Source: Lasiosphaeria ovina (Eukaryota; Ascomycota; Sordariomycetes; Sordariales; Lasiosphaeriaceae). From it: DNA of 64,000 nucleotides. The notes beneath the pieces were generated by a model. It was not told the origin of the DNA. It saw only the letters and a program-made list of their open reading frames with translations, and made no database searches. The first letter of the stretch is position 1; each line of letters starts with the position of its first letter. The position numbers and the translations under genes were made by a program. Of the stretch, positions 278 to 30,487 are shown one piece after another. Where the stretch lies: positions 8,060,001-8,124,000 of the forward strand of contig JAULSN010000001.1 in the NCBI GenBank assembly GCA_033439765.1. The letters are read 5' to 3'.

Positions 278-278
<1 letters not shown>

Positions 279-790: not shown

Positions 791-2027
791 CGCCCTCTGA
801 GACGACCGACACCTCGCCCAAAGGACAAAGCTAGCAACCGTACCTCACGCGCTGCATTACACCACGAGCCCTCGGCAGAGTAGGCCCCACCTCGACCACG
901 CCCCCTTGCGGACCTGCATTGCTTACTTGCTCCAGTTCCCCTCACCCAATACGTTCACGCCCTTGGTGCCCACACCTGTCCTTCTCTCACCCACTTCCAA
1001 GCTCTCTCTCTGCAGCTTTATTATACCTCCTCCCCGGCGCCGCTCCCGTCCGTGTAACTTTGCTGCCCTCCTCTTGGTTGTCAACGTTCTTCGACTATAA
1101 GCCACCTCTCGCAGCTCCTGCCTGTCCTTTGCACTCCCTCCCTCTCCACGTCTCTGGAGCCTGTCGATACCTCAGCTCTTCACGGCATAGTAAATAAACA
1201 TACCCGGTATAAACCGGAGCACTACCCGGTGCCAGCGACCTCGGTTGACACGCCTTGGAACCCGAAGCAACCGAGTTTGTATTTTTTGGATTTTTATTTT
1301 GGGTCTCTTCCCTTACGACAAGAGTCTACAACAAACGAGCCTCTCGACTACTGGAGCAATAGGCACCTACCTGCCCGCCCACTTAACCTCGAAGCACGAG
1401 CGCAGACTTGAGGGCCAGCGAGAAAGAAGCGAGCGAGATCGCGTCATGCCACAGCCCCAGTTCCGAACCTACCTCGACCTCTCCCTCGCAAACAGCTGAA
1501 GGAAGGCGCAAATTTGCTCCCGCCTCTCAACACGTGTCTGCCCCCAAGGTTCCTTCTTTGTGGCCAGCAGCTGGTCTTGCCAAAGTCAAGCTTTCGGGTT
1601 AGACTTTGTGGCGCCTCTCAGCCGTGGGTTTCTCAATATCACGATCAACCTTGTGTGTTCTCAACAAGACCCGCCATTCTTTGCCAAACTCGAGGCAAGC
1701 TGAAAAAAGAGGTTCGTTATGGTTCCAGGCTCGGAGGAAGCTCTGTGCATTTGATATTAATTTCTCCTCCCGCCCACCCCTCATGTCGGGTTGTTCTCGC
1801 CTGTTCCAAACTCTTGGAACTCGTTGTACTCATACATCACCATCCCTGATTACCTACTCAAACTCTGAATATTACAACGCCTCCCAAAACTAGGACTAAC
1901 AACTTGGTCCTCGTGTCTAGCTTTGCCCCACAGCAACCACAGATATCTGAACCACGGTTCTTTGAAGAAGGACGGACGACACGTTTGGCGGACCACCCAG
2001 AAACGTGCCTCCTGCATTGTCGGCGGC

Positions 2028-3305: not shown

Positions 3306-3468
3306 TGTAACCACTGCTGCTGCCTGCTACCGCAACGGCTTTTGACGCGTTTGATATACCCGTTACCTTTTTCTTTTTTATTCTCGTATTAATTTTCGTA
3401 ATCCATCACCCACCCTGATCTTACTGGATAGCGCGCCACGCGTTTGTTTGGATTCTTCCTTGCATAAT

Positions 3469-6439
3469 TTACTCCCCAAGCACTGTGTCGGGTACAAAAT
3501 GGTTGTCGGAAGTGCATAGCAGCCCAATTTGGGTGCCAGTTTTGTTTTTGGCGTTTCCAAGAATTGCTCGGAAAGCATTGACGCGGGCCTCGAGGGCGTA
3601 GGGAGACAAAGACGAAGCCTGGGAAGAAGATTGTGGCATACAATAAGCGAGGTCGGCCTCTTCGGGACTCGACGAGTCATGTTCTTGTGGGTTAGGTTCT
3701 TGGGCTGGGCGGCGTTTTCGAGGAGGGTTGGTTGGCTGGGACTCGACGGAAGATACCTCCGAAGCGCTGCTGCTGCGACGGCGACGGCGGCCATGTTGCT
3801 GGGATAATTGTTGCTCGTCTGGCTGGGTCGGCAGTGTACCCAACAGTGGTACAGAATGTTGCTGCCGGCTTGGTGCCAGGGAGCCAATGGCGTCTTGTTC
3901 TTTTTGGATTTTCTCATGCCCCTGTTGCTCGTTTTCTTGCTGTTGTTGTTCGTGATGGTTAATACTCGGCAAGGACGGCTCAGCAACGCTGCTCGAGGTG
4001 GTGGTGGTGCTAGCTTGGCTGTCCCAAGCGGGTAGCGGCCCCAAGATAGAGGCCAATTTTGCATATTCTGGCTTCATGAGCTCGTCGTGTCGAAATTTCA
4101 CGCTCTCGCCAGAGCATAGGCGACCGAAGAGGTCGGCAATTGTGATGTCTGGGTTTTAAAAATATTAGATTATTATATCCTCGATTTTCTTTCGCCCGAT
4201 GCCTTTTTTCATGAATTGATGGTGTCATGTTTTCAGCTGAGGAAAAGATGGGGATTAAACGTAGCTAATTGGAATAATACTTGCGTTTTTCGTACCACTC
4301 GGCTGGCGAGACAGTGCATGGCCAGACATCTCTGGGCCGGAAAGCCCCAACGAGATGGCACAGCTCCTGGTAGGACGAGTGTCGAGAGTAGGGGAATGTG
4401 ATGACGCTTGGCAAGGTCTCTCTTTCTCTGTCGTTGTCGTCTCCTATTAATTCTGGGCGGCCCTGCTGGTATTGGTTGTTGCTTTTGCCTGTTGAGGCCG
4501 GTGGCTGCTGCTGTCTGTAGGGCATTGATTTCTGGGCGATGGCTTCGAGGGCGGCCCGCAGTTCCGTCTCGTTGTTGTCACTGAAGTTCGAGAAGCCAAC
4601 GTCGAGTGGGATTTTGCGGCCGGCTGCAGCGGCGTTGAGTAGGAAGAGGCGGATTTGTTCCTTGTCCTTAGAGTTCTCACTAGCTTTGTTGTCATTGGCG
4701 GTGACGGCGAGAGAGGACAGGGTTTGTGGGTTCTCGACAGTATTGGGGGAAATTCTGTATAGGAGGTTAGTTGGTGAGATAATTGGTTTGGTGTCTTTTC
4801 TTGAACTGTATCAGAAGTTTAAAGGAAGGGGCAAGTACGAAACAACGCAGTTGAGATCTAAGCAACTCACATGTCGAGAAGAGGCTCGATATCCGAGGGC
4901 GAGAGATAATCTAGCTCAACCTCGCGCTCTAGGTCGTCGCCGCCGCCGCCAACGCCGACCTCTGCAATGTCCTGTCCGTCGGGGAGGCGGGCGGTAATGG
5001 GCTGGATCCAGACAACCCCCCCGCGGCTGGACTTTTCCACGATCGTCTGGCAGTAGTTGCCTTTCTCGCAGCTGTGGAGACGAATACGCTCCCCGTTTAC
5101 GTCAACATCGTGGAGCGTCGTTAGACAGCCGGGGTGATGCGTGTTGCCGCAAATGAAGCCAACCAGCGGTGCGGCTTCAGGGCACAGGTGGAATTGCTGT
5201 TGCTGCTGTTGCGGTAGCCTTGCGGTTCCTGTGCTGGTGTTGCTGTTGTCAGAGCGTCCTTTTTCCACGAGAGAGCTATAAATGAGCATTTTGTACTCGT
5301 CGACGTGGATCTGTATTTCCTTTGTCAGCTTATTGAATCATTGAGGCTTCTTGCATGTGGCGAGCATTGTAGAGAATGGACATGAGCAGGTAGACAAACC
5401 GACCTTGCTATTGAGAGCCTTGGAGAGAACAATCCAAACATCTTCGTATCTAATATACGCCTTAGCACGGGTTCAGAGAGGAGTTTAATATGTCAGACAT
5501 ACCCATAGGTCCAGGCCTGAAAATGAAAAATTGTGTCGGCAGGGTATCCGGCTACCTTCTCCAGTAGCTCACGCAGGCCGTCGGATTTGGGTGGGAATTC
5601 GACGTCATCATCGATGAAGGAGGTGTCGAGGTATATGGTGTCAATGGTTTTAAAGCCGTATGAGTACTCGATCAACGAAGGCGACCTCACAAGCGTGTTT
5701 ACAAACCACGGCTCGCTGCGGATGTCGCCTGTGTAGAGAGCAGCCTTGCCCTGGCCTTCGAATACTAGTCGATCACCAACAGTTCAGTACATATAGCCGC
5801 GGTGCCGAGCAGTGCGAGCAGACGTACAAATCATCACAGCTCCGGGACAATGGTTGGCGTTGAAAAGAGTGACCCGGATATGGTTACCGGGCTCAAGCTC
5901 CAGGGTCGTTGGCGTATCCAACGGCAGGGGTTTCTTTACACTTTGTGTCAGCGATGGTAATACCGATTATGCAGGATTGTTATTGGATGTTATCCTACGA
6001 GCAAGGTTTTGAGGTGCTTATATCTCTGGATCCGGGCCTCCAAGATGCCCTTGGCATAGTTTATGCGGCAGGGGAACCTCTCGAGGCGGAGAAGCATCTC
6101 CTTGGTAGCTGCGGAACAATAGACGCTACCGAGGCCAGTCAGAAGGTTTCTTAGGACTCTCACCATGCGAGGGTAGGCATAGACAAGATTGCATAGTGTC
6201 TCCAGTGTCTTACAAGGGCGACCGCAGGCTCTCAAGACCCGCGAGGTGGTCGCTGTGCACATGGCTCAGGAAACATGCCAGCGGCGGGCGAAGATGTGCG
6301 TGGTTACGAAAAAAGTCAACTACAGCACAATACGGGTCTCGTCAGAAACCGAACTCGGGCATTTATTGCAAGTGCGAGGAGCGGGAAACATGCCTCTGAT
6401 ATCGGGAAACTCGGCCACCAGGCCGTTGAAGGTCGACAT
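3469..6439 (-). CDS. Artemis/SNM1-type metallo-beta-lactamase, beta-CASP DNA nuclease
   Basis: A predicted DNA-repair nuclease of the DCLRE1 (SNM1/Artemis) family, which trims DNA ends during end joining or crosslink repair. Nine exons give 760 aa: 6439-6394, 6319-6214, 6125-5999, 5933-5828, 5764-5503, 5449-5404, 5310-4871, 4754-4285 and 4148-3469. The N-terminus MSTFNGLVAEFPDIR is followed by the metal motif HVHSDH, then NANHCPGAVMI, YTGDIRSEPW, the beta-CASP motif LDTSF and FHFQAWTYGYEDVW. VVWIQPI carries the Val typical of DNA-specific members. The region of TFPYSRHSSYQEL and FRPRDVWPCTV ends the DRMBL part. The C-terminal 220 residues are Gln/Ser-rich and poorly conserved, closing on a short acidic GE end. 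There is no zinc finger before the catalytic domain, so it is closer to Artemis than to Pso2. Introns 1 and 8 appear to be GC-AG introns. Confidence 0.9.
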
Positions 6440-7756
6440 GGCGAGCAATAAATCCGGTCCCGTCTCCCAGAACCCCAAAGGTATTGGTGGCGTCGTTGCA
6501 ACTGCTAGCAGCGGTCGCGCGGGTGCAACCAAGCTAAATCGTGAATGAGGTACGTATTAGGTCTCTACGAACAAGGTGTTCGTACTAATAAGCACTTTGT
6601 CCAATTCCCTTTCCCTGGCTCTCGAGACTCTTAGAAGAATCCCAACTTTTCCGGATAGAATGCACATGTCTCAAGCAGAATGTGAATGATGAATACTGAG
6701 GTGCCTGGAACTTAGTCCAGCCTCGGCAGCTTCCGCCGTTAAAGTTTTTTGGATCGCGCTGTTGCCTTTTCTGCAAAGACGCGACGAGCAGGCGGCAGGT
6801 CCGCCCAGGACTAAGCATTTAGGCCCACAGCGAAGCGCTGTCAGGTGAGTCCGCATGATGTCGTCACTCCCACCTCAATTCGGGGCACTTGTAGCTGTGT
6901 TTCTGTACAAAGTACCTTATATTAGCTTCCAACTAAAGATCCAGAGTACATATAGGCATTTTGTCACAATATCGGGAGTGAAAGAGGAACAGGTAGGCAA
7001 TTACCGAGTAAAGAGGGACCTAAAAGAACAGAGTCCAGCCCATCTTCTTCAAGCCACCCCTCGGTTATCTGACCCGAGCCGTTTAAAGAGCCAAACCCCG
7101 CTTGGCATCACCCCCTTCCCCTCCCCCCACACACACATCCATTTGGATCCATGGGTCTCCCACGTTGACGGAAAGTTTGGTCTAGGTACTGTACTGTCTA
7201 CACTGGTGGTAATTTCGATGCGTGAAAATCCAGTAAGATACCTATGCTGGTACTGTACCCATTACCGATAACTCAGCCGATCAGTGCAGGCACGGTCCGC
7301 ATTTAGCTTGTTAATGGCGTTTCATGGAGGAATGGTGCCTTGCTTCCGGCGCCTCGCCAAGACTTCGCAGGGCTGAGACATCGACAATGACCTGTGCTTT
7401 GGGCGGTCTTCTTTCAGTTGCGGGGCTTGAAACCGGGGGTTCGCGCTATAAACCGCCCGTGCACCTCCAGTCCTCCACAGCCAGCTACCTAGGTAAGGTA
7501 CCCCTGTCGTGGAGCCAAGCCGTCTCAGCTTCGCTGGCCAGATCACTATGGGATGACAACCAACGGGGCAGTGTGCTTACGTTGGAAACACCGAGCGCTC
7601 AACCCGCGATGGGATGGAAGCTCGACTTCTTTCTGCTGCGTGCTCAGCCAGCAACAAACACACGGAAGAGAATACACGGGAACCTGCCGATAAGAAGCTT
7701 CAATTCGACTCAATCGGCCTCGGGAATGACGGCAGCTGCAGCCGCCAGTCCATGAG
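6440..7756. other. Intergenic, divergent promoter region
   Basis: About 1.3 kb between the divergent Artemis-type gene and the P450 gene. The small open frames show no family motif, signal peptide or splice structure. A TACCTAGGTA palindrome lies near 7488 and GTACTGTAC near 7190. Both promoters must be here, but no specific site can be assigned. Confidence 0.5.
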
Positions 7757-9534
7757 ATGCGCGCCATAACATCGTCCATCAGCTCCCAGCTGCTCGAGTC
7801 GCTAACTCTTGGTCGCTTTGTCTGTGCAGCCTTCGTCTTCACGATCACCTCTTTTGTCATCGACTTTACATGGAAGCCTCGATACCCCAAGTCGCTGCCC
7901 CGCGTCGGGAACGGCGGCGGCATCTTGGGCACCGTCAGGAACTGGTTCGGCTACATAATGCACTTCAACGAGTGGGTTGACGAGGGCTACGAGAAGGTCA
8001 GCACGCTCGCGCATTCTGCCCCCTGATTCCACGCTTTTGACTCAAGGCACTCGACTTACACCAGCGCAGTATTCGAAAAAGAACCGTGCCTTCGTTGTCC
8101 CCTCTGCTCCGAGCCGCCCCGACGAGATCGTGGTCCCCCGTTCGCAGACTACCTGGCTCCTCGAGTTCCCCGACCACATCGTGTCCACCAAGGAGTCGCA
8201 CAGGGATTTGCTATACAACGACTACCAATTCTTTGGCGTCGACGACCAGTTCCCCATCATAACTATGCACAAGCACCTGGCAAGAAACTTGGTGGGTCTT
8301 ATTCCCGGCGTCCAGGACGAGGCCAGCGGCGCCATCGATGCCACCTTCGGGACCGACACAGAGAACTGGAAGTCGCTTAATCTGTGGGAAGCCTGGCTCG
8401 GCATCGTCCCCAGGGTCACCAACCGCATACTAGTCGGCGAAGTGACATGCAAGAATCAGGAGTTCCTCAAGAACCATGTCGCCTTTGCCGACGACGTGGT
8501 GCGGAACAGCTTCATTCTCAACATGTTCCCCAAGATTCTGCAGCCTTTCGTCGCTCCCCTTATAGTTCTGCCGAACCGGTGGCACTGGTACAAGACATAC
8601 CGAGAGGTGAGGCCCCTCGTCGAACAACGCCTGCACGATATGGAGCGAAAGCTCGCCGGCGACCCCAAGTACGACGAGTGGGAGCCGGAGGAGAACCTCG
8701 TCACGTGGCTGATCCGCCAGGCTCATGCCGATGGACGGGTCGAGGAGCTAAATGCTTCCATGATTTCCAAGCGCCTGCTGCCAGTTGAGTTTGCCGCCAT
8801 CCATACGACCGTCATCACGGGCCACGGGATTCTGCTGGACCTTCTCTCCGCAGACCCAGCCAAGGGGTATCTGGACGCCCTTCGGGAAGAGACGAGTCGC
8901 GAGCTCGGGGCCGAGGGAGGCTGCTGGTCCAAGAATGCCCTATCACGACTTCACCGGACCGACAGTGCGATCCGCGAGAGCATGCGAGTTAGCCACTTTG
9001 CCACGGGCTTGACCCACCGCAAAGTCATCACCAAGGAGGGCATCACGAACACGGTCGAGGGCTGGCACGTCCCGCGCGGCTCGTACCTGATGCTAGACTT
9101 AGCCGGGACGCACCACGACGCCGACCTGTACGAGAACCCTGATGTTTACGACCCCTTCCGCTTCTCGCGAGAACGCGAGGAGTACAAAGCGCGCCCGCAG
9201 GACCAGAAAGACCCGGCCGAAGCGCTCCGCGTGCAGAGGCTGGGCATGGTGACAACGAGCGACGAGTTTCTGGCTTTTAGCCACGGGAGACATGCCTGGT
9301 AAGGCCTTTTTTCTCTTTTATTTTTAGTATTGTTAACTGACAGTGCCTTTTCTTCCTGCTAGCCCTGGGCGGTTTTTTGTGGCTCATGAGCTCAAAATGA
9401 TCTTAGCATACCTCCTCGAAAACTACGACATCAAGCCCCTGGCCGAAAGACCAAAGCCGCTGTGGATTGGCCAAACCATCATTCCCCCGGTTGACGTCAA
9501 AATTGAGATAAGAAGGCGCAAGGGAACGGTTTGA
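7757..9534 (+). CDS. Cytochrome P450 monooxygenase
   Basis: A microsomal haem-thiolate monooxygenase of unknown substrate. Three exons, 7757-7996, 8070-9298 and 9363-9534, give 546 aa, normal for a fungal P450. A hydrophobic anchor lies at about residues 20-38. The I-helix reads EFAAIHTTVIT: the usual acidic residue before Thr is replaced by His, a variant I know from fungal tailoring P450s of the ent-kaurene oxidase kind. The K-helix ExxR is AIRESMR, and the haem loop FSHGRHACPGRF is completed across the last intron, which splits the haem Cys codon. No terpene cyclase, polyketide synthase or other tailoring enzyme is next to it, so there is no sign of a metabolite cluster here. Family assignment is secure; subfamily and substrate are not. 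Confidence 0.93.
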
Positions 9535-9716
9535 ATAGACAGGCACTTTTGGATCGAGACCCTTAACGAGACTTAGACGGTATTGCATCGCTGTCATATA
9601 AATAGGTACGCATTATATATCGGGGATCTACTCATTGGGCGTGTCATAGATGGGCTAGCAGTATGTGTATAGACAACCAAGAAGAAATGTGTAGCTCTGG
9701 CGCGTAATCATTCGTC

Positions 9717-12434
9717 TCAGTCATGGAACTGGCCCTCTGGTATATACCGCCACTTCGAGATGTAGGCGGGCGTTGTCCCGTTCCCGCCATTGCTCGTGCA
9801 GTACACGCCAAGGATTGTCCCTATATGCAAAACGCGGTGTCAGCTCTTCTTGCGCTGGCCATATATTGCTCTTCGATGCACGGCGGATAGGGGAGTTCAG
9901 CAAAAGTACGGCCAATAGACGATAGGGTCATGGGCATAGCCCCTGAAGCCATCGTGAGCAGGTAAACAAACAAACAGCTATGCATACCTGTAAAGCCCCA
10001 GCTGACGGCATCGTTGGGCGCCGACGCAATAGTCTGCATCGCCGACCGCGCGCCCGCCGGCCCCACGGAAAACGTAAAGTGCGTCGTGTTGGCCGCCTTG
10101 ATCTCCAGCGTCAGGTCCAGAGTCGCATTGCCGCTGCCGCTGCCGCTGCCGCTGCCGCCGCCGTTACGCCACCACGCCCTCGGCAGCCGCGCCACCACGG
10201 GCTCCGGCACCGCCGTCGACGACGACATGCCGCGGAACCGCACGTGCGGCACGAGCTCGTCGGGCCCTTTTTTTCCCTGTCCGCCCTCCTCTTTGGCTCC
10301 TGCCGGCCCCGGAAACGCGGTCGTGCCGGCGGTGGTGTTGGCCGGGAGCAGCACGACGCCCAGGTCGAGGTGGTGGTTCTGCGCCAGGAACGCCGTCACG
10401 CCCGCCTCCACCTCTACCTCTCTGTCGGACGGCGGCGGCGCAAACGACACGTCGACGCTGAACGAGAACAGCGTGTCCTGCTGCCGCCGCCCCACAAACG
10501 TCTGCCCCCCGCCCACCCCCCCCGCGTAGTTGCCGTTCAGCGCCGTCAGGTTGAGCGCCGATGGCCGCAAGCGGAGCGTCCCGAGCCGCTCCGCAGGCGA
10601 CACGGTGTAGGCGCCGCCGCGCGGGAAGCGCCAGTGCGTGAAGTGCGGTGGTAGTGGGGAGTCGGGCGGGAAGGAGGTGATGAGGTCGCCTTGGTTGATG
10701 TATGGTCTGGTTGGTGGGTTAGTTGTTTCTGTTTTCTTCTCTTTTGTGGAATAGGAAAAGGGAGGGTTCACTCCGGCTGCTATTTTCTTTTCTTTTCTTT
10801 TCTTTTCTTTTCTTTTCCTTTGCATTTTAAAGGGGGGTAGTTACCCTGTCCCACCAATGTCATCACCGCCGTCATCATCTCCTGAAGAGGCACGAGCCGG
10901 CAGCGCCCAGCCGCTCATCTCACCACTGATAGGCGAAAAGACTGGCCAGTCCTTACCGGAGGTCCACTGCACCGGAGTCAGGACCGTCTCCCTTCCCATC
11001 GGGTAGTTGACGTATTCTGGTCCCGACCGGGTGGACAGAGCCGCGGCCCACCTTAGTGTTGTGGCCTCACAGGTAAGCACAAGTCCGTTCACGTTTTGTT
11101 GGCTCTGACGGGCGGTTCTCTCACCAGTTTCCAGCGTGGTCCTGGAACAGGTCGGCATGGCCGACCGTCTGGACTGGTGATGACAAGCTTGTAAGCTTTT
11201 GTGTTCTCTGCTGGTGTGGGAATAGCGCAACGTACAGTAGCTAGTCGTGTTGGCATTCGTCAAGACGGGGTTCGCTGGGTTCGCCTCAAACGGCCCACTG
11301 ATGCTCTTGGACCGAGCCATGGTGACCATGTGATTCAGCCCGGTGCCTCCTGTACTCGGTGAAGTGACATATTAGTCAGTTTGAGACGTTGAGCTTGGAA
11401 CTCCCGGGAGAACTCGAACCTTCTGCGGCCAAAAGGTAGTAGAAGCCATCTCTCCTGTAGATGTGTGGCCCTTCAGGAGCCTGGATATGCCATGGATTCG
11501 GCTTCAGTATGTGCGTAATAAAGTTTGCTGTCAAGGGCGTGTGCATCTGGGCTTACCAGGCCGCCGGTTCCGTTCCAGATTGTGCGCCACTCGCCCACTT
11601 TTCCCGCGTCCAGGTCAGCCTCGGCTTGTTGTATTGCCGGACTGAAATAGGAGAACATGACAGGGGGTCAGCGTGTTTACTTGTTCGAGATAAATATGTA
11701 GGAGCCACTCACCCAACCTGCCACGCGTGAGCACCCGTGATGTATACCTTGCCGTCTACGTCCCAGAAGGGCTCGGTATCATAGCCGGTGAAATTGAAGT
11801 GGACTGGGTCAGACCACGAGGCCGGCTTGAACGGATCCTTTGCCTTGAAGATGAGCTAGGCCAGTATGTCAGCCAGAGAGCTATCTTTTGGGGCTCTGCA
11901 CAGGCGGGACTCGGTTACGTTATCCCATCTGGAGAAGTCAGACTGTGGGCGGTCGTCATCGACCAGAGTTGTGACAACCCAGAAGGTGTCTTTGTGGAAT
12001 CTCAGAGCCGGTGCCCATATTCCGCTTTTGAGGCCTTTTGTCAGTTACGTCACCTAGGAGAGCACACCCAGGTTTATGCCACGGGGTACCTGTGGTGGCA
12101 GAGCCTACCTGGTGGACCTATTGGTCTCACCGAGTCTTGGAAGCTGCTCTGGTCGGTCCAGAACATGGCCGATCAACTTCCAGCTTTGCAGGTCCTTGCT
12201 CGCGTGGATGGGGATTCCGGGGAAGGCGTTGAAGCTGGACGAGGCGCAGAAGAATGTGTTGTTGCGCTCGGGCACAAAGATGCAGCTGGGATCCGGGTGG
12301 AAGCCGGGCAATATGGGGTTGCAATACGTGGAATTGGCTGCTGTAGCTGCTGTTCCTATTCCTGTTCCTGCATGACCCAGTGATCTGGATATGCCGGCCG
12401 AGAAACACAACAGCAGCTTTAATAGGTGAGACAT
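9717..12434 (-). CDS. Secreted glycoside hydrolase family 43 (beta-xylosidase/arabinofuranosidase type)
   Basis: A predicted extracellular enzyme releasing xylose or arabinose from hemicellulose. Ten exons give 633 aa: 12434-12131, 12034-11919, 11855-11713, 11641-11557, 11480-11420, 11349-11236, 11173-11125, 11051-10845, 10706-9988 and 9820-9717. The start precedes a signal peptide (MSHLLKLLLCFSAGI). The five-bladed propeller follows: NPILPGFHPDPS holds the general base Asp, YDTEPFWDVDGKVYITGAH the supporting Asp region, and APEGPHIYRRDGFYYLL the general acid Glu. From about residue 360 a beta-sandwich domain typical of two-domain fungal GH43s follows, with a Gly-Ser linker. The exon 2 acceptor (AAAAG) has no pyrimidine tract and is the weakest junction. 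Xylosidase versus arabinofuranosidase cannot be decided from sequence. Confidence 0.88.
10783..10817 (+). repeat. TTTTC pentanucleotide repeat inside a GH43 intron
   Basis: Seven perfect TTTTC units on the plus strand (GAAAA on the coding strand) within the intron 10707-10844 of the GH43 gene. It lies close to the donor side and does not enter an exon. Confidence 0.95.
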
Positions 12435-13527
12435 TCTGCCCTGGTCCGTCATCCTTCTACCAGCCCAAGATGCTCCAGGTTGAACCATCCAACCCTTCTA
12501 GCCACCAACTGCGAACAGAAAAGGGATTTAAATACCCCGGGCTACCTATTGTCAAGAAGCTCTAATCCCGCCCCGCCGAGGAGGCCATAGGGGGGAAGAT
12601 ATCGGGCGGTGCATTGCCGGGTAAAGAGCTGGGGTAAACAAGACTCTGAAAAACAGTTGCTTCTGGCCTAAAGTCCCTAGGCCGAACCGATTAGGCACCT
12701 GGCTAAGCAGGCGTTGTGTAGAGATTATGTCCTACCCTTCGCCGATGTCTTCTATTTTGGGGATTTGGCCTCAACGCAATCTCGACTCTCGACTTTATTG
12801 TAGCTACTCGTATGCACATACCAGCCAGTATTTGTGCCTTTCCCTGCTTTTTATATTTTTATATTTTTATATTTTTAAAACCAAAATTCACCCATGATGC
12901 TGCAACCCAATGGTGTTTCCATATTAAATATTTTTAGCGAGAATTGTTGCTTGTGGCACGCGCATCGTGAACTTTTGTTGTTGATGTTGGTAGTGAGTGG
13001 CCGCCCTTTTATTATGAGCCACTAAAAACGGCAAAGGGGCTTCGCGGGAACCAGAAGCTCCAGTGACTTGGCGTAACCTAAATGTCTTGCCGCCCTTAGA
13101 CAGCTGTTCAAATTGGAGACCAGCTGCCTGCTAGTGGCAACATTCAAGGCTGGCCTGGAAGCCGCCACTGAAACGTTTGGTTGGCCACAGGCCGACTTCA
13201 GCCCGCCCTGCCTCGGAGTATTCCACACCAAACCCATACGCTGCCACGAGCCGTGAAGACGTGCAAGAAACCGTTGCGACAAAGTTTCCGTTCCTCCCAG
13301 GCCCTCAAGCGACTCAAATCCTGGCTACGCTGCTGGCCGGCGAAAGCAATGACGAGCCCACATCCCCCGCCGTTACGGACATGACAGAAAACCCCGGCAC
13401 ATAGAAACAATAGCCGGCGAAAACGAGCATATCGACGAACACGATCCTGTCGCAATCCATTATTTCGATCTTATCTTCTAGATATCCGACCCCTTGAACT
13501 TCCAGAGACAACTGGACATTCGCCAAG
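12435..13527. other. Intergenic, divergent promoter region
   Basis: Between the GH43 and Saf4 genes. It holds an AT-rich run of about three TATATTTTT-like units at 12850-12880. No open frame here is supportable; both neighbouring promoters should lie within it. Confidence 0.5.
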
Positions 13528-14682
13528 ATGCAGGGCTTTAATATGGGGCGCTATGTCCCGCCGGACCAGGAGGGCGTCGTGTCGGGCAACAAGCTGAACA
13601 AGAAGCACGCCCTCGGCGCGCGCGCAGCCAAGCTGGCGTCGCAGGGCATCCTGACGGTGCGGTTCGAGATGCCGTTTGCCGTGTGGTGCGAACACTGCCC
13701 GAAGCCGACCGTCATCGGCCAGGGCGTGCGCTTCAACGCCGAGAAGAAGCGCGTGGGCAGCTACTTCACAACGCCCATCTGGTCCTTCCGCATGCGCCAC
13801 ACGGCCTGCGGCGGCGAGATAGACATCCACACGGACCCCCAAAACACGGCATACATCGTTGTATCGGGCGGCAAGCGTCGCGACACGGGCGGCGACAACG
13901 ACGACAGCCTGGTCAAGGCGGGCGAGTTCGTCATCACGACGGCAGCAGAGCGCGCCGAGCAGCGCGAGACGGCGTTCGGAAAGCTCGAACAGACCATTGC
14001 CGACCGCCAGCGGCTGCTTGACGCAACCCATCGCGTGGGCGAGCTTCACGACGCCGCTGCGCGCCAGTGGGACGACCCTTACTTCCAGAACCAGCGGCTG
14101 CGGAAGGCGTTCCGCGTCGGGCGCCACGAAAGGGAAAAGGACGCGGCGACCACGGAGGACCTGCGGGACCGGATGAGCTTGGGGATCGAACTACTACCGG
14201 GTACCGAGGACGACGCTCGACGGGCCGCCCTAATTGACTTTGGTGGGCCTGACATGGAAAACGACGGCCCAGTCACAAAGGCCCTGGCGCGGCCGCTATT
14301 TGAGAGAACGACGGCAACTGACCACCAAGGGAAGCAAAAGGTCAGCGATGAGGGAAGACGAAGTCGCAACATCGCTCTGGCGTCGAAAAAGACGGCGCAG
14401 AGAAAACTGAAAGCCGAGGTGGCCGCTTCCAAGATGCGCGAGAGCCTCGTCTCGGAGATCGTCGGCAACACCCGGGCAGCACGGGATCCCTTCCTCGATT
14501 TTGGCAGCAGCAAGGACAAGGATACGCCGAAAGGGACAGTCTTGATCCCTGGGCTCAAGAGGAAACGCGGGCCCGAAGAGGTGCCCCGCCGCCCCCCAGA
14601 TGGTGCCCAGGAGCCTCGGAAAGCTGTGGCCGAAACCACCACCACCAACGCACTGGTGAACTATAATTCCGATTCAGACTAG
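13528..14682 (+). CDS. Yju2/CWC16-family splicing factor, Saf4/CCDC130 type
   Basis: A nuclear pre-mRNA splicing factor of the CWC16 family. A single exon of 384 aa starts MQGFNMGRYVPPDQEG, the characteristic N-terminus of the Saf4/CCDC130 branch. The conserved block ILTVRFEMPFAVWCEHC and RFNAEKKRVGSY then TTPIWSFRMRHTACGGEI contains the zinc-site region. The first Cys pair is intact (CEHC); the second reads HTAC rather than CxxC, so one ligand may be His. TDPQNTAYIV, a charged coiled-coil middle and a low-complexity tail rich in Lys, Arg and Glu follow. The sister paralogue Yju2/CCDC94 starts differently (MSERKVLNKYYPPDF), which is why I favour Saf4. It runs tail-to-tail with the Ubc8 gene, about 850 nt away. 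Confidence 0.92.
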   Translation: MQGFNMGRYVPPDQEGVVSGNKLNKKHALGARAAKLASQGILTVRFEMPFAVWCEHCPKPTVIGQGVRFNAEKKRVGSYFTTPIWSFRMRHTACGGEIDIHTDPQNTAYIVVSGGKRRDTGGDNDDSLVKAGEFVITTAAERAEQRETAFGKLEQTIADRQRLLDATHRVGELHDAAARQWDDPYFQNQRLRKAFRVGRHEREKDAATTEDLRDRMSLGIELLPGTEDDARRAALIDFGGPDMENDGPVTKALARPLFERTTATDHQGKQKVSDEGRRSRNIALASKKTAQRKLKAEVAASKMRESLVSEIVGNTRAARDPFLDFGSSKDKDTPKGTVLIPGLKRKRGPEEVPRRPPDGAQEPRKAVAETTTTNALVNYNSDSD

Positions 14683-15535
14683 GTCGGGAAATGAGTTAAT
14701 GGCGACCCTAGACTAATGACCTTTATATTTTCTACTACTCGTTTATTGTCATGTCATGTATATATATAGGCGGTAGACACAAAAACAATGATACCCATGG
14801 GCGGACTATTACAAGGTTATTCCATCATTCATTCGAAACCCAGCTCGAGTTATCGAAACTATCACCGCTCTCGTAGGCTGAAGTAACAGGCATATTGACA
14901 AACCAGAACAGTCCTTCAAGGGATGGGATGGGATAGGGTCATATATGTGTATATATCTACTTTGCCTCAAGACAACATGTAGGATATTGCAGCCGCTATC
15001 TTGGCAGTATGCATGTAAACACGACACGAACACCAAATTCTGGTATTTGGGTGGGTACATTTGGGTACGTATTGCTCACCACAAAAAAGAAAACTCCCGA
15101 CCAAAACAAGAACAAGAAGAAAATGGGGTGGAGAGTAACTGATGGATGAGTGCGCCCCAAACTAGACCACCCAAATCATTGCGTACCTAGGCACTGAGCA
15201 AAGATCCAGTTTGTACAAAACGAGAGGAGTGATAAAACACCCTATATTGATGGTTCACAAATGCTAGAACAAACAAATACTTGCCCTGGCTTTAAACCTG
15301 TGGCAGCCAAGTGACCAAAACCTAATTCATGTATAACGCCCCCTCCGATAGCCATTGCCGGGAAAGAAAGAAGCAAAAAAAGAGAAAAACACCTGTTCCC
15401 ATGAAAATCCCAACAAAAGAAACGTATGTTGCCAGGCTGTCAGTCCGCCTCTCCATTTCTCTGCGGGTAATGTGGTACTCAGAAAAGCAAGAAAAATGCT
15501 CAGATCGCCGTGGGCATACCCACCGTCACTACAAA
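14683..15535. other. Intergenic between convergent genes
   Basis: It holds the 3' ends of the Saf4 and Ubc8 genes. A GGGAT-type repeat occurs near 14922-14936. No gene is seen. Confidence 0.5.
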
Positions 15536-16900
15536 TCATACGTCGTCCATCTGTCCTGCTGCTTGTTGCTCCTCCTCGTCGTCATCATCGTCAAAACTTG
15601 CAACGGAAGACATTTCGTCGTCCTCCTCGCTCTCGACGCCGGCCTCGTCGGCCGCTTCCTTGGTCGCGTATCTCTGGACGTATTCTGGAACCAAAGTCAG
15701 CCATAGCCTTTTCTCCTTCACATCCATATTCATACCTTTGACCTTGATGTCGTAGCTCTTGGGCTCGCGCATTAGCAAGGCAGCTGCCTCTCCGTTCAGC
15801 GGGTCGGTCGGGTTCGGGTAGCGCAGCAGCTGCGGCAAGAACACCTCGAAGATATTTATCATCTCGAAAATCGGGGACCACGTCTGGTTGATGACGTCCA
15901 AGCAGACCGACCCAGACCTAGAATGAAATTCCAACTCTTAGTCCCGGTTCGAGTTTCCAAGCTTCGACATTGACTTGGGAGGGTGAGGTGTTGAACGGGC
16001 GGGTGAGCAGGCAAATGGACTCTTGTTCCTGCCATGCCGAATTCGTCTGGAAACCACTGTAGACATCTTCTGTCCCTTGCCCTCCAGTTTTCTGATTCCG
16101 CCCCCATCCCCCATGTGCTTTTCTTTTCGCTTCCGACCTGGTATTTTCCAACTTACAGTTCATCGATGTTTGGGTGGAAAATGCGGTTCACGAAGCCGAT
16201 GCTGGGTGACTTATATGGGTACTGGTCCGGCAACTCAACATGGACTTTCCAGACCCCGCCTTCAAAAGGAGCTATGACATTCGCGCATAAGCAAAGAGGA
16301 ACTGGAATCGGCATGGCCGTCATGGGGGAACCAACTTTCGGCAGGGCCCTTGAATCGCACATAGAACTCTTGCCTGTAGGCCGGGCGGAGTGGTTAGAAA
16401 GCGTGGTCGCGTCTTCGGATTATATTTGGTTGGTGTGGCGCAATGGCACGGCTGTGGAAATGGCGGTCGGGCATTTGCTTACACTGGATGGAGAAGCAAG
16501 CACCAGTTAGCTAAATCCGTCGCATGTCGTAGAGGTGAATGTAGTGAATGCCCCCGCACTCAGCAGTCTCAAAGGAGTGTTTAGACAAGATTCTGGGACA
16601 TACTGTTATCGTTGACCAAAGTTACCTCATAGTCGCTCATGAGCCTGGGGAGAAGCGTCAGTATATATGAATGGTGGAGGGTATACGGAACCGGGCCGGT
16701 AATCCGTGCGGGGGCCTTGGTTGCTTTGCCCTGGGGTCTTGAATGCCATACATCTTCATGACCTAGAGTAAAAAAGTAAAGTTCGCGGGTTAGTTTCGTG
16801 AGCATGGCGGAGGCTGTGAGGGAATGGCAGCCTCGGGTTTTGGGTCAAGCCTCAGTTCAAAGCTTACGTCTGTCTCTATACGGCGTCGTGGAGAGCTCAT
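15536..16900 (-). CDS. ubc8: Ubiquitin-conjugating enzyme E2, Ubc8/UBE2H type
   Basis: An E2 that passes ubiquitin from E1 to substrates; in yeast Ubc8 works with the GID ligase in turnover of gluconeogenic enzymes. Eight exons are proposed, 189 aa: 16900-16868, 16762-16752 (11 nt), 16644-16604, 16483 (1 nt), 16373-16336, 16271-16157, 15917-15736 and 15684-15536. The product starts [15 protein letters not shown], runs through [28 protein letters not shown] and [19 protein letters not shown] (catalytic Cys), and ends in an acidic tail, matching yeast Ubc8 and human UBE2H. Without the 1-nt exon the best alternative is a 226-nt intron with donor AT|GTCCCA, which inserts one Ser (NDNSMQEF) and skips two good splice sites. 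Family identity does not depend on that choice. Confidence 0.92.
16483..16483 (-). other. ubc8: Candidate single-nucleotide exon of the Ubc8 gene
   Basis: On the coding strand the sequence is CCATCCAG, then T, then GTAAGC. Upstream, exon 3 ends AAC-A before a perfect donor GTATGT (16603); downstream, exon 5 begins G-CAA after CCTACAG (16374). A+T+G restores the conserved Met of NDNMQEF. The two flanking introns are 120 and 109 nt, like their neighbours (105 and 107 nt). Each has its own CTAAC branch site 20-25 nt before its acceptor (GCTAACT and TCTAACC). Confidence 0.7.
16752..16762 (-). other. ubc8: 11-nt microexon of the Ubc8 gene
   Basis: The exon GTCATGAAGAT sits between acceptor CTCTAG and donor GTATGG and encodes Val-Met-Lys plus two bases of the next codon. 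Joined to its neighbours it gives IETDVMKMLMSDYEV, which matches the invariant N-terminal helix of Ubc8-type E2s. Confidence 0.85.
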
Positions 16901-18781
16901 CTTGGCTGCAGGCGATGGAGCTGGGTCGTCTGTGAGTGGAGGGGCGATTAATCATTCTGGTTAGTTTAAATCGTTGAGAAGGGCGACCACGGAAGGCAGG
17001 GCTTTGCGGGCTTGAGGACCTTTGGGACGACGGAGGGGTAACAGAGGCAAATGGCAGGGCGAATATGGAACTATAATGAGCTTAAGGTAATACTCTACCT
17101 TTATAGAACTCTGTAGATGGAGAGCCAAATGACAAGGAGAGGATCCGCTTGCTACGGTACCTGGTGAGAAGGAGGTGTCGTCGATTCCCAGATGGGGGTC
17201 GAGTTGAAAGGGTATGTAGGTAATTAACGGTCGGAAGATGGGTTACGAGAGGGAGGATGGGTGACGGGTTTTGACAGTGACCGCACGCCACGGCACGACG
17301 TCAGGCCTCTGTTCGGGTGCTGAATGATAAGCCCTTGTTCGAGCGATTATGCACTAGCGGGCACGATAAGGATTCGCTCCCCAACCTGTCCACTGAACTC
17401 CACAGCTCCGCTGCCGACCAGTCAGTCAACGACAGCTGTTTCTACGTGTTTCAAGACACCAAGATATTATGGGATCGAATCGAAGGACTGGGTATTTGAG
17501 GAGTCTAAGCTTCGACGAAACTGCGTCAAGTTCAATCAATCTACACATTTAACGGCGGAGGCGAACGACACGTGGTCACGCGCCAGCCGTTTAGTGGGGG
17601 TTTGGCCATGCCCAGCCATTCCTCGCGTTGGATACCTTGCCTTACAAACCTTAGGTTTTAAAGAACCTAACGTTAACGTCGCATGTTCACGCTAGCCTCT
17701 ATCCTTTGTCCCAGCCGCTGAATCCGGCAGCATGTGAAGCCCGTCTTTTTTCACAGCACCCAGCCTACTCCAGCACGGTCTAGATGCTGTCCGCCCGGGT
17801 CAGCGCAAGGGCAGCCCTTATACATGGATTGATCCCGAACTATAATAAGAGTTCGGCTTCCACTGCAAGTTTTTACACAGCTAACTCAAAGTGTGAGAAA
17901 ACGGTAAATTCCCTGCACACTTGCCTCCCTACACTATGCGTGTGTCCTAAGCCTGTCCTGCCAAAGAACCTAGGCGCCGCTGGGACATGAAGGCGGAATA
18001 GTTCGGATAAAGAGAATAGCATGGTCACGCGCCTTGGGGGAAGGCAGTACTAGCCCTCTGTCACATTCTGCCCCGTATCTTTACTTGGTGCACATCGCTC
18101 GGTATTGCCGTAGGCTACGGAGTATCGAGTAGACATCCCTCAGGTAGTTGCTAGCGTGGCTCATACAAGTGCGGCGTTCCAAAAATCAGCAGGGAACAAA
18201 GTTATGATTTAGGGGCTGAGATTCACGCTGAAGATGAACACGATTGCATTTAGCACTATTTCCACACCCAAACTGCAGTTGCGTTTCACTGAGGAACGAG
18301 GCTGAAGGGATCTGTGGGGAGAAGACGAAACTACACGTGTATGGAGCTGCATGTGCTAGCACGTGTGCCCCACTAGCCGATCCCCAGTTCCTCGGTTCTG
18401 CCAAAATCCACCCCAGCTTGGAAAGGGCTGTGGCGCCGCGGCGCGTGGGCTTTCGTCCAATCAAGGGCGCTAGGGACCGCGGCTTAGTGCGTACCGAATC
18501 AACCGAGCGAGAGCGCTGGCTGGCTGGAGTACTGGAGAACTCCAAGGAATTTTGAGAGATACTCAATTGTACGCAGCAAAAACCATCATGACCTTTTGAA
18601 TAAAAGCTGCGCAAATTCGCCCCAACCATGGTCTCCAACTATTCCCCTTTTCTTTTCTCGCTTGCAAGTGCAGGCTGTCAATTATTTCAGAACACCAAAA
18701 ATCCAATTTTTCCCTTCCCTTTTTCCGTTTTCTTTTTGGCGCATAGACAGCCAAAGTGCAGAGGCGGTACCTAAGTCACAC
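16901..18781. other. Intergenic, divergent promoter region
   Basis: About 1.9 kb between the Ubc8 and PanB genes. None of the short frames is convincing. TACGGAGTA occurs at 18116-18124. A T- and C-rich stretch at 18640-18740 probably belongs to the PanB leader. Confidence 0.5.
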
Positions 18782-19843
18782 ATGCACCTCACGTCAATAG
18801 CAAGGTCGTGTGCAATTCTGCCCAGAAGCACACGACCATCTCACCATGCACTAGCTAGGCCTCTCTTTGCACTATCTCAGACCAGACAGAGCTCACACTC
18901 TCCCATGGGCACGCCGCCGGCAAATCCGAGGAAGAAAGTCACCGTTGGTACACTCCGCTCCCTGCACAAGAGGGGTGAACCTATCACCATGATCACTGCC
19001 CACGACTTTCCCAGCGCCCACGTCGCTGATGCCGCAGGCATGGACATGGTCTTGGTTGGCGACAGTCTCGCCATGGTTGCCTTGGGCATGGAAGACACAA
19101 GTGAGATAGTGCTGGAAGAGATGTTGCTCCACTGCCGGTCTGTTGCCCGCGCCACCAAGGCTGCGTTCACTGTATGTATATTTATGTCGCATAGCTCCCT
19201 CTCAATCACTGACCAATGCATCATCTCTCAGGTCGGCGACCTCCCCATGGGGAGCTATGAGATCGCTCCGCAACAGGCCCTCGAGACGGCGATCCGCTTC
19301 ATCAAGGAGGGTCGCATGCAGGGAATCAAACTCGAGGGAGGCAAGGAGATGGCTCCCACTATCGCCAAGATTACCACCGCTGGTATTCCTGTCCTTGGTC
19401 ATGTCGGCCTGACTCCACAACGGCAGAACGCTCTTGGAGGTTTCCGTGTCCAGGGCAAAACGGCGTTTGGAGCAGTAAAGGTACTGGAAGATGCCCTCGC
19501 CGTTCAAGAGGCGGGATGCTTCGCTGTTGTCCTAGAGGCCGTCCCTGCCGAAGTCGCGGTTATTGTGACTCGCAAACTGTCCATCCCTACCATCGGAATC
19601 GGCGCTGGCAACGGCTGTTCCGGGCAGGTTCTTGTTCAGGTCGACATGACTGGCAACTTTCCGCCTGGGAGGTTTCTCCCCAAATTCGTCAAGAAGTATG
19701 GAGACGTCTGGGCCGAGAGCCTGAAGGCCATAGAAGCGTACCGAGACGATGTCAAGAGTCGGCAGTACCCTGCCCCTGAGCACACGTACCAGATTCCTAA
19801 AGATGAGTTGGTGGTATTCGCGGAGCATGCCGATAAGGTATAA
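18782..19843 (+). CDS. panB: 3-methyl-2-oxobutanoate (ketopantoate) hydroxymethyltransferase
   Basis: It catalyses the first committed step of pantothenate synthesis, adding a hydroxymethyl group from methylene-tetrahydrofolate to 2-oxoisovalerate. Yeast Ecm31 is the counterpart. Two exons, 18782-19171 and 19232-19843, give 333 aa. The first 40 or so residues are Arg/Ser-rich and lack acids, fitting a mitochondrial presequence. The barrel starts at KKVTVGTLRSLHKRGEPITM. VLVGDSLAMVALG carries the metal-binding Asp region, VGDLPMGSYE is formed across the intron, IKLEGG follows, and GHVGLTPQ and GIGAGNGCSGQVLV are diagnostic. The 60-nt intron is in frame and stop-free, so an unspliced message would code for 20 extra residues. 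An in-frame upstream Met-like start exists, but the chosen ATG gives the expected targeting peptide. Confidence 0.95.
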   Translation: MHLTSIARSCAILPRSTRPSHHALARPLFALSQTRQSSHSPMGTPPANPRKKVTVGTLRSLHKRGEPITMITAHDFPSAHVADAAGMDMVLVGDSLAMVALGMEDTSEIVLEEMLLHCRSVARATKAAFTVCIFMSHSSLSITDQCIISQVGDLPMGSYEIAPQQALETAIRFIKEGRMQGIKLEGGKEMAPTIAKITTAGIPVLGHVGLTPQRQNALGGFRVQGKTAFGAVKVLEDALAVQEAGCFAVVLEAVPAEVAVIVTRKLSIPTIGIGAGNGCSGQVLVQVDMTGNFPPGRFLPKFVKKYGDVWAESLKAIEAYRDDVKSRQYPAPEHTYQIPKDELVVFAEHADKV

Positions 19844-25572: not shown

Positions 25573-27318
25573 TCACTTGTTCCTCAGAGCCTCGATGTCG
25601 ACGACCTCCTTGACGGCCTCAACGGTCAGGTTCAGGGGCGCGTCGTCCAGAACGCAGACGCTGTCCTCGATGCGCACGGCCAGGCCGCGGAAGTGTTTGG
25701 GCCACCGCTCGTCATCGACGGGCACGTAGACGCCCGGCTCGATGGTGACGCAGTGGCCCGCGCGGAGGACGCACGACCGCCCGTAGCCCGGCACGTCGTG
25801 CACGTCGAGCCCGACATAGTGGCCGACGTGGTGCGGGAACAACACGTCGATGCCGGCCGACATGGAGAAGTCAAAGCCCAGCTGCTTGAGCTCGTCGCGT
25901 AGCGCCTGCGCCGTCGTGTGGTGGATCTGGTCCAGCGTCAGCCCGGCGTCCGCGCGGCAGAGGCTCACGCCCGCCCGCTGCACGCGTAGCACGGTTTCGT
26001 AAAGGTCGCGCTGCGGCGCGGAGAAGACGTTGCCGCCCCCCCCGCGGCCTGTCGGCCACACGCGCGTGATGTCGGCCACGTATCCGCCGTACTCGCCGCC
26101 CGCGTCCACCAGCACCGTCTCGTCGGCGGCGAGCTGCGCCGTGTTGTGCACGTAGTGGATCTTGCACCCACGCGCCCCGCCCGCCACCACGGGCACGTAC
26201 GCCGGCCCCGAGCACCCGTCGCTGTGGAAGCGGTACTCGAGGAACGCCTGCAGCTGCGCCTCGTCGGTCCACGCGCGCCGCATGGCGTCGGTCAGGGCTC
26301 GCCCGGATACCCGCCCGGCCTGCCGCATGTTGGCGATCTCTGCGGGCGACTTGATGGCGCGCAGCTGGTTGACCAGGGGCTGGAGCGGCCGGGTGCTGGA
26401 GCTGTTTCTAGAGGTCGCGTGGTGGGCGACAGTAGCGGCAACGGCGCGCGCTGTCGTTGACTGCTGGTGGTAGCGCTTCGCGGTGCTGTTGAGATCGATG
26501 TCGGTGTAGGTGCGGTTCGCGCCCTGCAGGAGCTGCGGCAGAAGGGTGTCCAGCTGGGAAATGTCGCCGGCGACGTCGGCGTTGAAGACGTCTTCGGCAG
26601 CCTGCAGGCCGCTCCAAGGGCCGCCCCACTGCTCGGCACGCGGGTCCTTGGGGCGGCAGAACAGGTGGAAGGACAGGTCGCCCAGGTTGGGACCGGTCCG
26701 GCGGATCACGGCCACCGAGAACGGTTCCAAGAACCCGGTCAGGTACATGAAGTTGGTCTCTTGGCGAAATGGGAAGAAGACTGCCCCGGACCGGTACAGC
26801 AGGTCGGCCGACGCCAGCACCGCCACGTCGCCGTCCTGCGGCAGGTTCAACGCCAGCGCGGCGCGCCGATCGGCGTACTCCTGGGCGCTGATGCCGGGGG
26901 TTACTGGGAGAGGTTGTGTCAGCGCTGGGTTGGTTTTTCTTTATTCATGGCATTAGGAGTGGGTGGCTCTCTTCCTAGCCCCTTTTCCTCGATATTTTTA
27001 TTTATTCTTTTAAAAAATATTTTGTTCAAAGGGGGACATACTTTCACCGGCTTTGAGAATATGAGGGTGGGTTTCATGCACGGGCTGGCCAAACTCGAGC
27101 TGAGCTGCCGAAACAGTGGTAGCGGTGGCATAACTCCTCCTTTGACCTGGTGTTCCCGCTCTGGCTAGAGGAGATGAAGAGCATGTCCGCCATGACGGCT
27201 TGACCTGTCCTGCTGATGCGCTTCTTGCCGCCGCCGCTGCTGCTGCCCCAAGATGGCCAGGTCCCTGTCGCCGCGATATTACAGAAACATGCCGCAAAGC
27301 GGCCTGTGGAAGCTGCAT
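25573..27318 (-). CDS. icp55: Xaa-Pro aminopeptidase, mitochondrial Icp55 type
   Basis: Icp55 removes one residue from proteins already cut by the mitochondrial processing peptidase, stabilising them. Two exons, 27318-27042 and 26903-25573, give 535 aa. The N-terminus is rich in Arg, Ala and Ser with almost no acids, a mitochondrial presequence. FGQPVHETHPHILKAGE, joined across the intron to TPGISAQEYADRR, is typical of the family. The metallopeptidase M24B core carries all ligands: VDAGGEYGGYVADITR (two Asp), HHVGHYVGLDVHD (His), TIEPGVYVP (Glu) and VRIEDSV (Glu). The coding strand is very GC-rich, which creates long antisense frames that are not genes. It is divergent from the Dbf4 gene, about 1 kb between starts. 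Confidence 0.93.
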
Positions 27319-28319: not shown

Positions 28320-30487
28320 ATGGCAACAGTATCCATATCCCCCGTTGCCGTCCAATTTCCTGCCATGTCGTCGACTCGGAGAGTGCCTCTCTCGAGCAAT
28401 CCTAATGCCGCCAATTCCCCCCTCCGCGCACCGCCTCTGTACTCACTCCAGGCCAACAAGAAGTCCCGTTCCCATGCCGAGCTTATGCGCGAGGAGGCCT
28501 ATGGCCAGCCGCCTCCGGCAAAGCGCCAGATGGTCGACCTGGGCATCCAACGCTCGACCGTCTCTCCGTCGCGCGCGAGGCCGGCTAGGACCATCGTGCA
28601 CCGCGCTGTCTCCAAAGCCTCAGCACTAGGCACGGCGGCGGCAGAACGGGCCGCTCAGAACGCCCCGGTGTGCAAGCCCTCGGAGAAGGAGCTCGATAAC
28701 ATTCGCCAATGGCAGACGCAGATTCGTGCTCGCTTCCCTAAGATGGTGTTCTACTTTGAGAGCATCTCCGACGAGCAACGCCACAAACTCGCCAAGCAGG
28801 TGACGCAACTAGGTGCTGTGAGTAAATCGTGCTGGCTCCTTTGCCTGCTTTGAAGTTTTGGCGATGTGGTAAAACTGACATGTACTTCCTGCAGCGCGAG
28901 GAAAAGTTCTTCTCCATCAACATCACCCATGTTGTCACGACCCGGCCGATCCCTCCCGCGAAGGTGAATCGGGACGAGAACGATCCCGCGGCTGACGGCC
29001 ATGCGAACGTGGAGCAGCCCAAGACGATCGATCCGTCTCTTCTTAACCGGACAGCTGATCTAGGCATACCGTCGACATCGACAACCTCGGTCAGGAGGAA
29101 GCTGCTCTTCGATACTGCCTCGAGTCGGAGGATCCCGTTGCAGGCTCAAGAAGATACTATCAAACGCCCCAAGGCACGTAATACGGACGTCCTGCACCGT
29201 GCTCGCGAGATGGACAAAAGGATATGGTCGCTGGAGAAGCTGCAGAAGATCCTGGACATGGTCCAGGAGCCAGACCCGTATAAAAGCGCAGTACTGGGTC
29301 AGGGCCGTGGGACCTCGCAAGGCGGCCCCAACTCCAAAGCAGTGGAACAGTCCAACTTGCTCCAGCTTCTTCAGAACGAGCGTTTCCATGGGCCGTCGGA
29401 CCGAGATCCTACCGTGGCCAGCAAGGACCTCCATATCTTCAAGGGTCCTTATATCTATGTGTACGATGTAGAGGAGAAGTTGAAGCCCATCATGGTCAGA
29501 GAGTACGCCAAGGTCGCGGACAAAAAAGACGGGGAGTGGCCCCAGTTCCGGGTCGCTTCCCAGGGACGCTGTCCATTCGTCGAGGACTACGAACCTGTGG
29601 ACAGGGAGAACCGTGTGCAAACACGGACCAAAGAGCGAACTGGAAAGGCCGCTGTCGAGGTTGCTGCGCCGAGCCTAAAACCCCCCCAAGTTGAGCCCCC
29701 GAAGCCCGTCACGGGAAAACGAACTCTGGCAGAGATGGAAGAAACACAGCACCGAGTTGCCCCGGTAGCTGTCATGACTGCTGCTGAACCGTTTGACCGC
29801 GCCAAACTTTCCAATGCTCCCTCGCTGGATTTCAGGACCCAGAATGCATTCAGGAGCCACGCAAAGACTGGACGTTTTCTGGCGGGAGAGCCTGTCGCGT
29901 CTGGTGTGCAGCCGTCAAATGTGACGTCGGCAATCCGCTCTCAGATGATTTCATCTACCACGGGCGTGCTTGGGGCCAAAGCCGGCACGAGCAAGGAGAT
30001 ACACGGACTCCAGCGCAAGGTGCTGCAAAAAGCCAGCACGCCCGTGGTATCTCAGGACTTGAGCTCTCGTCGGCTGGCGGAGATGAGCCATGATAGCAAC
30101 ACGTTCATCCGGTCTGCAAGCCTTAGTAGGGCTACGCATCGGAAACTAGATGCGGTCGAGGAAGACGAGTCGGCGCAGCAAAAGGCCAAGCTCCGGAGGA
30201 CGGCGAGTGTCCCTGTTCCTCAAGCCAAGCAGAAGGCGCGTGACCCCAAGCCGGGTTACTGCGAGAACTGCCAGGACAAGTTTGAGGATTTTGATGATGT
30301 AAGTGTGAAGATTCTCGCTTTTCTAGTTTTGATGTTCGACGTACTGACACTGGTTTTTTAGCACATTGTTTCTCGCAAGCACCGGAAGTTCGCGGATAAC
30401 GACGATAATTGGGCCCAGCTCGACGCTCTCCTCAGCCAGCTGACGCGCGTGCCTCGCTACCAACATGAAGAAGAAGACGAATGGTAA
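28320..30487 (+). CDS. dbf4: Dbf4, regulatory subunit of the Cdc7 (DDK) kinase
   Basis: Dbf4 activates Cdc7 kinase, which phosphorylates the MCM helicase to fire replication origins. Three exons, 28320-28817, 28895-30298 and 30362-30487, give 675 aa. A BRCT-like motif N spans the first intron (FPKMVFYFESISDEQRHKL, then FFSINITHVVTTRPIP). Motif M reads LHIFKGPYIYVYDVEEK, with GEWPQFRVASQGRCPFVEDY. The motif C zinc finger (GYCENCQDKFEDFDD then HIVSRKHRKFA) is split by the second intron between its Cys and His pairs. Long stretches between are disordered. The first in-frame ATG is 28320; a second, at 28365, gives MSSTRRVPLSSNP and is also plausible. A short out-of-frame ATG at 28301 lies just upstream and could act as an upstream frame. 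Confidence 0.94.

Follow-up and report, generated by a model that had tools for sequence, protein, structure and literature searches.

A probable one-nucleotide exon in UBC8 of Lasiosphaeria ovina, with signs of conservation across the Pezizomycotina

Exons of a single nucleotide have been described in a few systems, cited here from the passages retrieved for each article. Most land plants share the one-nucleotide exon of APC11, which annotations lack (PMC4674806, PMC8831610), and a further one in VPS55 is conserved across land plants and absent from reference annotations (PMC8831610). Among fungi, the exon of Fusarium CYP621A is presented in PMC12940212 as the first of its kind; reads support it in two Fusarium species, and an intronless relative served as a yardstick. 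Mitochondrial introns one base apart are found in placozoan cox1 and in rnl of Ophiostoma and Ceratocystis (PMC5436844, PMC12308204). Trichoderma Xlr2 has a 20-nt microexon, and the retrieved part of PMC11121469 states that functional microexons were previously undescribed in filamentous fungi. The initial annotation of the DNA analyzed here proposed a one-nucleotide exon in UBC8, citing Arabidopsis APC11 as a precedent and knowing of no fungal case. The precedent is published (PMC4674806), while the claim about fungi no longer holds because CYP621A has been in print since February 2026 (PMC12940212).

The window, a stretch of 64,000 nt from one L. ovina contig, was read on the minus strand from 15000 to 17700, and a spliced gene model was rebuilt from this interval. 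In this model the coding region of UBC8 comprises eight exons of 33, 11, 41, 1, 38, 115, 182 and 149 nt, all on the minus strand. Exon 1 (16868..16900) is followed by an 11-nt micro-exon, exon 2 (16752..16762), which encodes V-M-K and the AT of the next Met codon. Exon 3 (16604..16644, 41 nt) and exon 5 (16336..16373, 38 nt) flank the candidate one-nucleotide exon 4 at 16483, and exon 6 (16157..16271), exon 7 (15736..15917) and exon 8 (15536..15684, including the stop codon) complete the gene. When joined, the eight exons encode a 189-aa UBC8/UBE2H protein. It possesses a UBC core domain (PF00179, E = 1.2e-38), and its nearest solved chain is 8pmq_E (E2-24 kDa, 8.1e-71), presumably yeast Ubc8, with the UBE2H chains 8pjn_2 (4.1e-67) and 2z5d_A (2.8e-66) next. 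Further solved chains are 2onu_A (putative E2, 5.2e-61), 1yf9_A (ubiquitin carrier protein 4, 7.3e-55) and Ubc13 (from 1.8e-26). By its domain and by its closest solved chains the product is of the UBC8/UBE2H type, which we take to be the E2 of the GID/CTLH pathway.

The convergent neighbour of UBC8 (13528-14682, plus strand) encodes a protein of the Saf4/Yju2 family (PF04502, E = 7.9e-68), whose members are splicing factors. Elsewhere in the window Pfam matches mark ordinary fungal genes for a velvet factor (2307-3305), a P450 (7977-9302), ketopantoate hydroxymethyltransferase (18596-19843), an M24 aminopeptidase P (25573-26850), a Dbf4-like protein (28829-30361) and a member of the DHDPS family (60014-61180). 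An open frame rich in PAQQPAQQ-type repeats (46484-47659, minus strand) adjoins an MFS transporter frame at 45020-46273.

The initial annotation read the joint between exons 3 and 5 as two introns separated by a single T, and the signals that it named are exact to the base. Exon 3 ends GATAAC-A in phase 1 and is followed at 16603 by the donor GTATGT. Intron 3 (16484..16603, 120 nt) contains a branch-site-like CTAAC at 16506..16510, its A lying 23 nt from the 3' end of the intron, and closes at 16484 with the acceptor CCATCCAG. The lone T follows at 16483, and the donor GTAAGC of intron 4 begins straight after it at 16482. Intron 4 (16374..16482, 109 nt) carries a second CTAAC at 16393..16397, with its A 20 nt from the 3' end, and the acceptor CCTACAG ending at 16374, after which exon 5 opens at 16373 with G-CAA-GAG in phase 2. 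A single base stands between YAG and GT, and both introns hold a branch-like motif, as expected of a spliceosomal one-nucleotide exon. The codon of Met-29 would be put together from the A of exon 3, the T of exon 4 as its middle base and the G of exon 5, giving NDNMQEF, the family sequence without a gap; 8pmq_E carries the equivalent ungapped NDSMQEF at this joint. Omission of the T from the model shifts the frame, and translation then meets a stop in exon 6 (coding nt 205), some 30 nt upstream of the exon 6/7 junction (nt 238), so the T is needed for the frame and for the conserved residue. The two introns had also been favoured for resembling in length those before the end of exon 3, which do measure 105 and 107 nt; this argument is weak and was dropped because intron 6 spans 239 nt.

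The rarity of the arrangement was examined on both strands of 264 kb, made up of the window and twenty further 10-kb stretches of its contig, with a reversed/complemented control. The bare core YAG-N-GTRNG is common, with 70 real and 114 control matches, or 16 and 28 when the central base is T. With an upstream CTRAC added, 6 matches were found vs 3 in the control, and with T as the central base 2 vs 0. The whole composite (GTRNGT, CTRAC, YAG-N-GTRNG, CTRAC and YAG at intron-like spacing) occurs once in the 264 kb, at the UBC8 site, and never in the control. Across the 51.7-Mb genome, CTAAC - CAGTGTAAG - CTAAC with variable spacing has one match, a count that may be a lower bound, which is again the UBC8 site; the control has none. 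Because the composite and genome patterns were drawn up after the site was known, these counts show rarity and are not a significance test.

Single introns were then considered as a source of the same protein. Single GT-AG introns were enumerated by pairing each donor from exon 3 to 16520 with every AG located 40 nt or more downstream, almost as far as exon 5 extends. The frame stays open in eight, and NDNMQEF results from none of these single GT-AG introns. The best outcomes include NDNSMQEF and NDN-K-FYV, and both recur as joints in the listed models of Pezizomycotina described below (SM in 5/122, K-F(Y/F)V in 13/122). The first of them is the strongest competitor: a single 226-nt intron from a GTCCCA donor, whose first base is 16599, to CCTACAG, which preserves the frame and adds a serine. 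The initial annotation had the length and the inserted serine right, and its objection that the donor is poor must be qualified. GTCCCA begins with the GT at +5/+6 of GTATGT; any GTNNGT donor carries such a second GT, so its presence needs no explanation. In rough estimates of U1 pairing the competing donor scores -1.9 kcal/mol, the same as the donor of intron 2 (-1.9), with the intron 3 donor at -2.9. Given the 239 nt of intron 6, length by itself does not rule out a 226-nt intron, and the extra serine could be structurally tolerated because the loop varies in length, being one residue shorter in human UBE2H. Against the 226-nt intron, it leaves the internal acceptor-T-donor flanked by CTAAC motifs, with its single match in the genome, unaccounted for.

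To compare the joint among relatives, three homologue searches were carried out. Each had more than 5,700 matches, and the 120 best from each search were listed, which gave 208 distinct entries. These comprise 122 genome-annotated Pezizomycotina, 25 named entries from outside the Pezizomycotina (two bear plant labels) and 61 entries without a species label. The unlabelled entries are DNA pieces of about 0.9 to 7.3 kb (P0030 has no size) and were taken to be spliced transcripts because they read uninterrupted from DNA too short for a seven-intron gene; some resemble rust sequences and not Pezizomycotina. The exon 3/5 joint is wrong in 103/122 listed Pezizomycotina entries and intact in 19/122. 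A scrambled joint was found in 0/25 of the listed named entries from outside the Pezizomycotina and in 0/61 of the listed unlabelled short-DNA entries. The last count, which covers an added serine as well as any other change at the joint, argues against the 226-nt intron. Intron loss or RNA-guided annotation may explain the 19 Pezizomycotina entries in which it is intact.

Other joints served as controls. In the 122 listed Pezizomycotina the joints of exons 5/6, 6/7 and 7/8 are intact in 120, 121 and 120 entries, and those of the 11-nt exon 2 in 96 (exon 1/2) and 46 (exon 2/3). The same five joints, taken in gene order from exon 1/2, are intact in 23, 25, 25, 23 and 22 of the 25 listed entries from outside the Pezizomycotina and in 53, 58, 60, 57 and 61 of the 61 unlabelled ones. 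Three of the unlabelled entries start downstream of the exon 2/3 joint, and some of the misses in these two groups are truncated or variant sequences. This pattern suggests that annotators cope with ordinary introns and fail at micro-exons. Of the 102 scrambled entries compared, 59 have a partner among the listed unlabelled entries with 97% identity or more across about 110 residues, although such a partner need not come from the same species because the protein is so conserved. Relatives' DNA was also sought in viral contigs (69 pattern stretches, 0 relatives), and fungal DNA in prokaryote genomes (199 stretches, with 3 distant E2-like loci and no fungal DNA). The E2-like protein encoded on a Micrarchaeota metagenome contig (L001, 5001-5393) is 34% identical to UBC8 (E = 2e-13); weaker E2-like matches lie on two contigs from planctomycetes (L002, L003).

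The wrong models bear an imprint of the DNA beneath them. If exon 3 ends AAC-A, the codon of the next residue must begin with A. An A-initial codon is possible for the first wrong residue in 102/102 parseable listed models, whereas 39% of the 709 interior inserted residues taken as background allow one; the motif is lost in the one remaining wrong model of the 103 (P0177). This test is necessary and not sufficient, because S and R also have codons without an initial A. If G-CAA opens the downstream exon, the residue just before Q needs a codon ending in G, and a G-final codon is possible in 82/82 parseable listed models for the residue before QEF (background 72% of interior residues). No p-value is given for either test because related species are non-independent samples. 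The commonest residue before Q is R (32 listed models), as expected from reading the acceptor AG-G-CAA.

Several kinds of error fit particular signals. S-x is inserted in 23 listed entries (SK 11, SM 5, SE 3, ST 2, SQ 1, SG 1), the outcome that splicing 4 nt late within GTNNGT would give, and the 13 listed entries with K-F(Y/F)V are as expected from an acceptor taken 5 nt late. Fourteen listed models keep M and read on. Twelve of these open with M-Y or M-F, which would follow if reading runs past the T into GTAY or GTTY, and the other two (MHPL, MSVTSM) bear no T-GTAY imprint. Five listed models change M to R and nothing else; our guess is that a read aligner forced the T onto a genomic G. Entries of the same species disagree, for example with MYV vs IR in Beauveria bassiana and MYVIL vs TRTV in Hortaea werneckii, as expected if annotators guess. 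In filamentous ascomycetes, many of the public UBC8 proteins (103/122 of those listed and genome-annotated) are consequently wrong at one defined place, where a rule-based correction is possible.

Together, a joint that among the listed entries is scrambled only in Pezizomycotina genome models and the imprints of the underlying DNA make it very likely that the one-nucleotide exon is real. Relatives' annotators reached many different wrong solutions at this joint, which an ordinary intron would not provoke, and the serine-inserting 226-nt intron is accordingly a very improbable reading. Slimmer still are the chances of a stwintron or of recursive splicing, in which the middle segment would be an intermediate and the T part of a split signal, or a zero-length recursive site. 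Such schemes share a stepwise element with the one-nucleotide exon, since an acceptor and a donor one base apart should be used in sequence. A [D1,2] stwintron is not known to keep a base between its two introns, whereas the T must be retained here to restore the frame and Met. In the [D1,2] stwintron, as the retrieved part of PMC12403724 defines it, the internal intron interrupts the donor of the external one between bases 1 and 2; in UBC8 both donors, GTATGT and GTAAGC, are whole and contiguous, and the T stays in the modelled product. Least credible of all is an assembly error, with a base missing at one ordinary intron, the T belonging to exon 3 or 5 and the internal block arising by chance: a one-base gap could imitate the phase mismatch, but the junction sequences are not homopolymers, the internal block has one match in the genome, and a fault in a single assembly cannot account for the same wrong joint in 103/122 listed, separately annotated Pezizomycotina entries.

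The scrambled joint is spread widely among the listed Pezizomycotina. By class, it is found in 45/53 Sordariomycetes, 23/28 Dothideomycetes, 4/4 Leotiomycetes, 13/15 Eurotiomycetes, 5/7 Lecanoromycetes, 10/10 Pezizomycetes and 3/5 entries of other or uncertain class. For seven classes (the above six plus Coniocybomycetes), the placement of a scrambled species was checked in the taxonomy. The 25 listed outside entries, which we take to include Taphrinomycotina, Lipomyces, rust and smut fungi, and Mortierella-like and chytrid sequences, lack the scrambled joint. Because it occurs within the Pezizomycotina and is absent from these outside entries, a single origin of the one-nucleotide exon at the base of the Pezizomycotina would be the simplest reading. 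Judged from protein models, the exon was probably already present in their common ancestor and kept in most lineages.

We therefore favour, at a probability of roughly 0.94, an eight-exon UBC8 in which exon 4 is the single T at 16483 between two ordinary GT-AG introns, a structure most likely ancestral to the Pezizomycotina. From sequence comparison we infer that the exon is spliced in vivo, that it is conserved in the DNA of relatives and that its flanking introns are removed sequentially. Spliceosomes cannot sit at once on an acceptor and a donor one base apart, and with the intron 3 acceptor and the intron 4 donor so placed, the introns should be removed one after the other. Either order of removal would yield an identical mRNA. 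The enzyme would be made from the complete two-step product only, because skipping of the T shifts the frame into the stop in exon 6. We had expected U1 to pair better with the intron 4 donor once intron 3 was removed; the duplex estimate went the opposite way, from -7.5 kcal/mol in the precursor to -4.9 after removal, with oligos that differed in length. The U1 estimates separate neither the two orders of removal nor the competing donor from that of intron 2. A regulatory role of two-step UBC8 splicing is at most conceivable. The fuller proposal, that the exon is ancestral and was retained because two-step splicing, with its premature-stop product on T skipping, acts as a control point on the GID/CTLH E2, seems unlikely to us.

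In the open-licence PMC literature no report of the UBC8 one-nucleotide exon was found among the matches listed, and the only fungal one-nucleotide exons among them were CYP621A and the mitochondrial cases. Within that literature and those matches, a single spliceosomal exon of this size from fungi precedes that of UBC8, which would be the first with an apparent range across a fungal subphylum and an apparent place in a conserved family of eukaryotic enzymes. The closest counterpart is CYP621A, which in the retrieved passages is likewise a nuclear spliceosomal one-nucleotide exon of a filamentous ascomycete that gene models miss, and likewise the middle base of a conserved codon with phase 1 and phase 2 flanks (PMC12940212). 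The CYP621A base is G and that of UBC8 is T; CYP621A, a P450 subfamily known from a single genus, seems to be seldom expressed (PMC12940212), whereas UBC8 is a ubiquitin-conjugating enzyme with an indirect, protein-level signal in seven classes. Plant APC11 is, like UBC8, a gene of the ubiquitin pathway, and its one-nucleotide exon is constitutive (PMC4674806, PMC8831610). Its base is A in Arabidopsis as against T in UBC8, and it was tested by reporter constructs (PMC4674806); as gene and kingdom differ, the two exons are presumed to be of independent origin. VPS55 is also another gene in another kingdom, and inclusion of its exon is alternative in early land plants (PMC8831610). Fungal stwintrons, in the sources retrieved, resemble the UBC8 pair in packing two U2 introns for removal in sequence, but they split a splice signal, whereas UBC8 has two whole donors and keeps one base. 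The mitochondrial introns are of group I or II, not spliceosomal as in UBC8 (PMC5436844, PMC12308204). The one-nucleotide exon is thus a kind of exon already known, and what UBC8 adds is its probable conservation throughout a subphylum.
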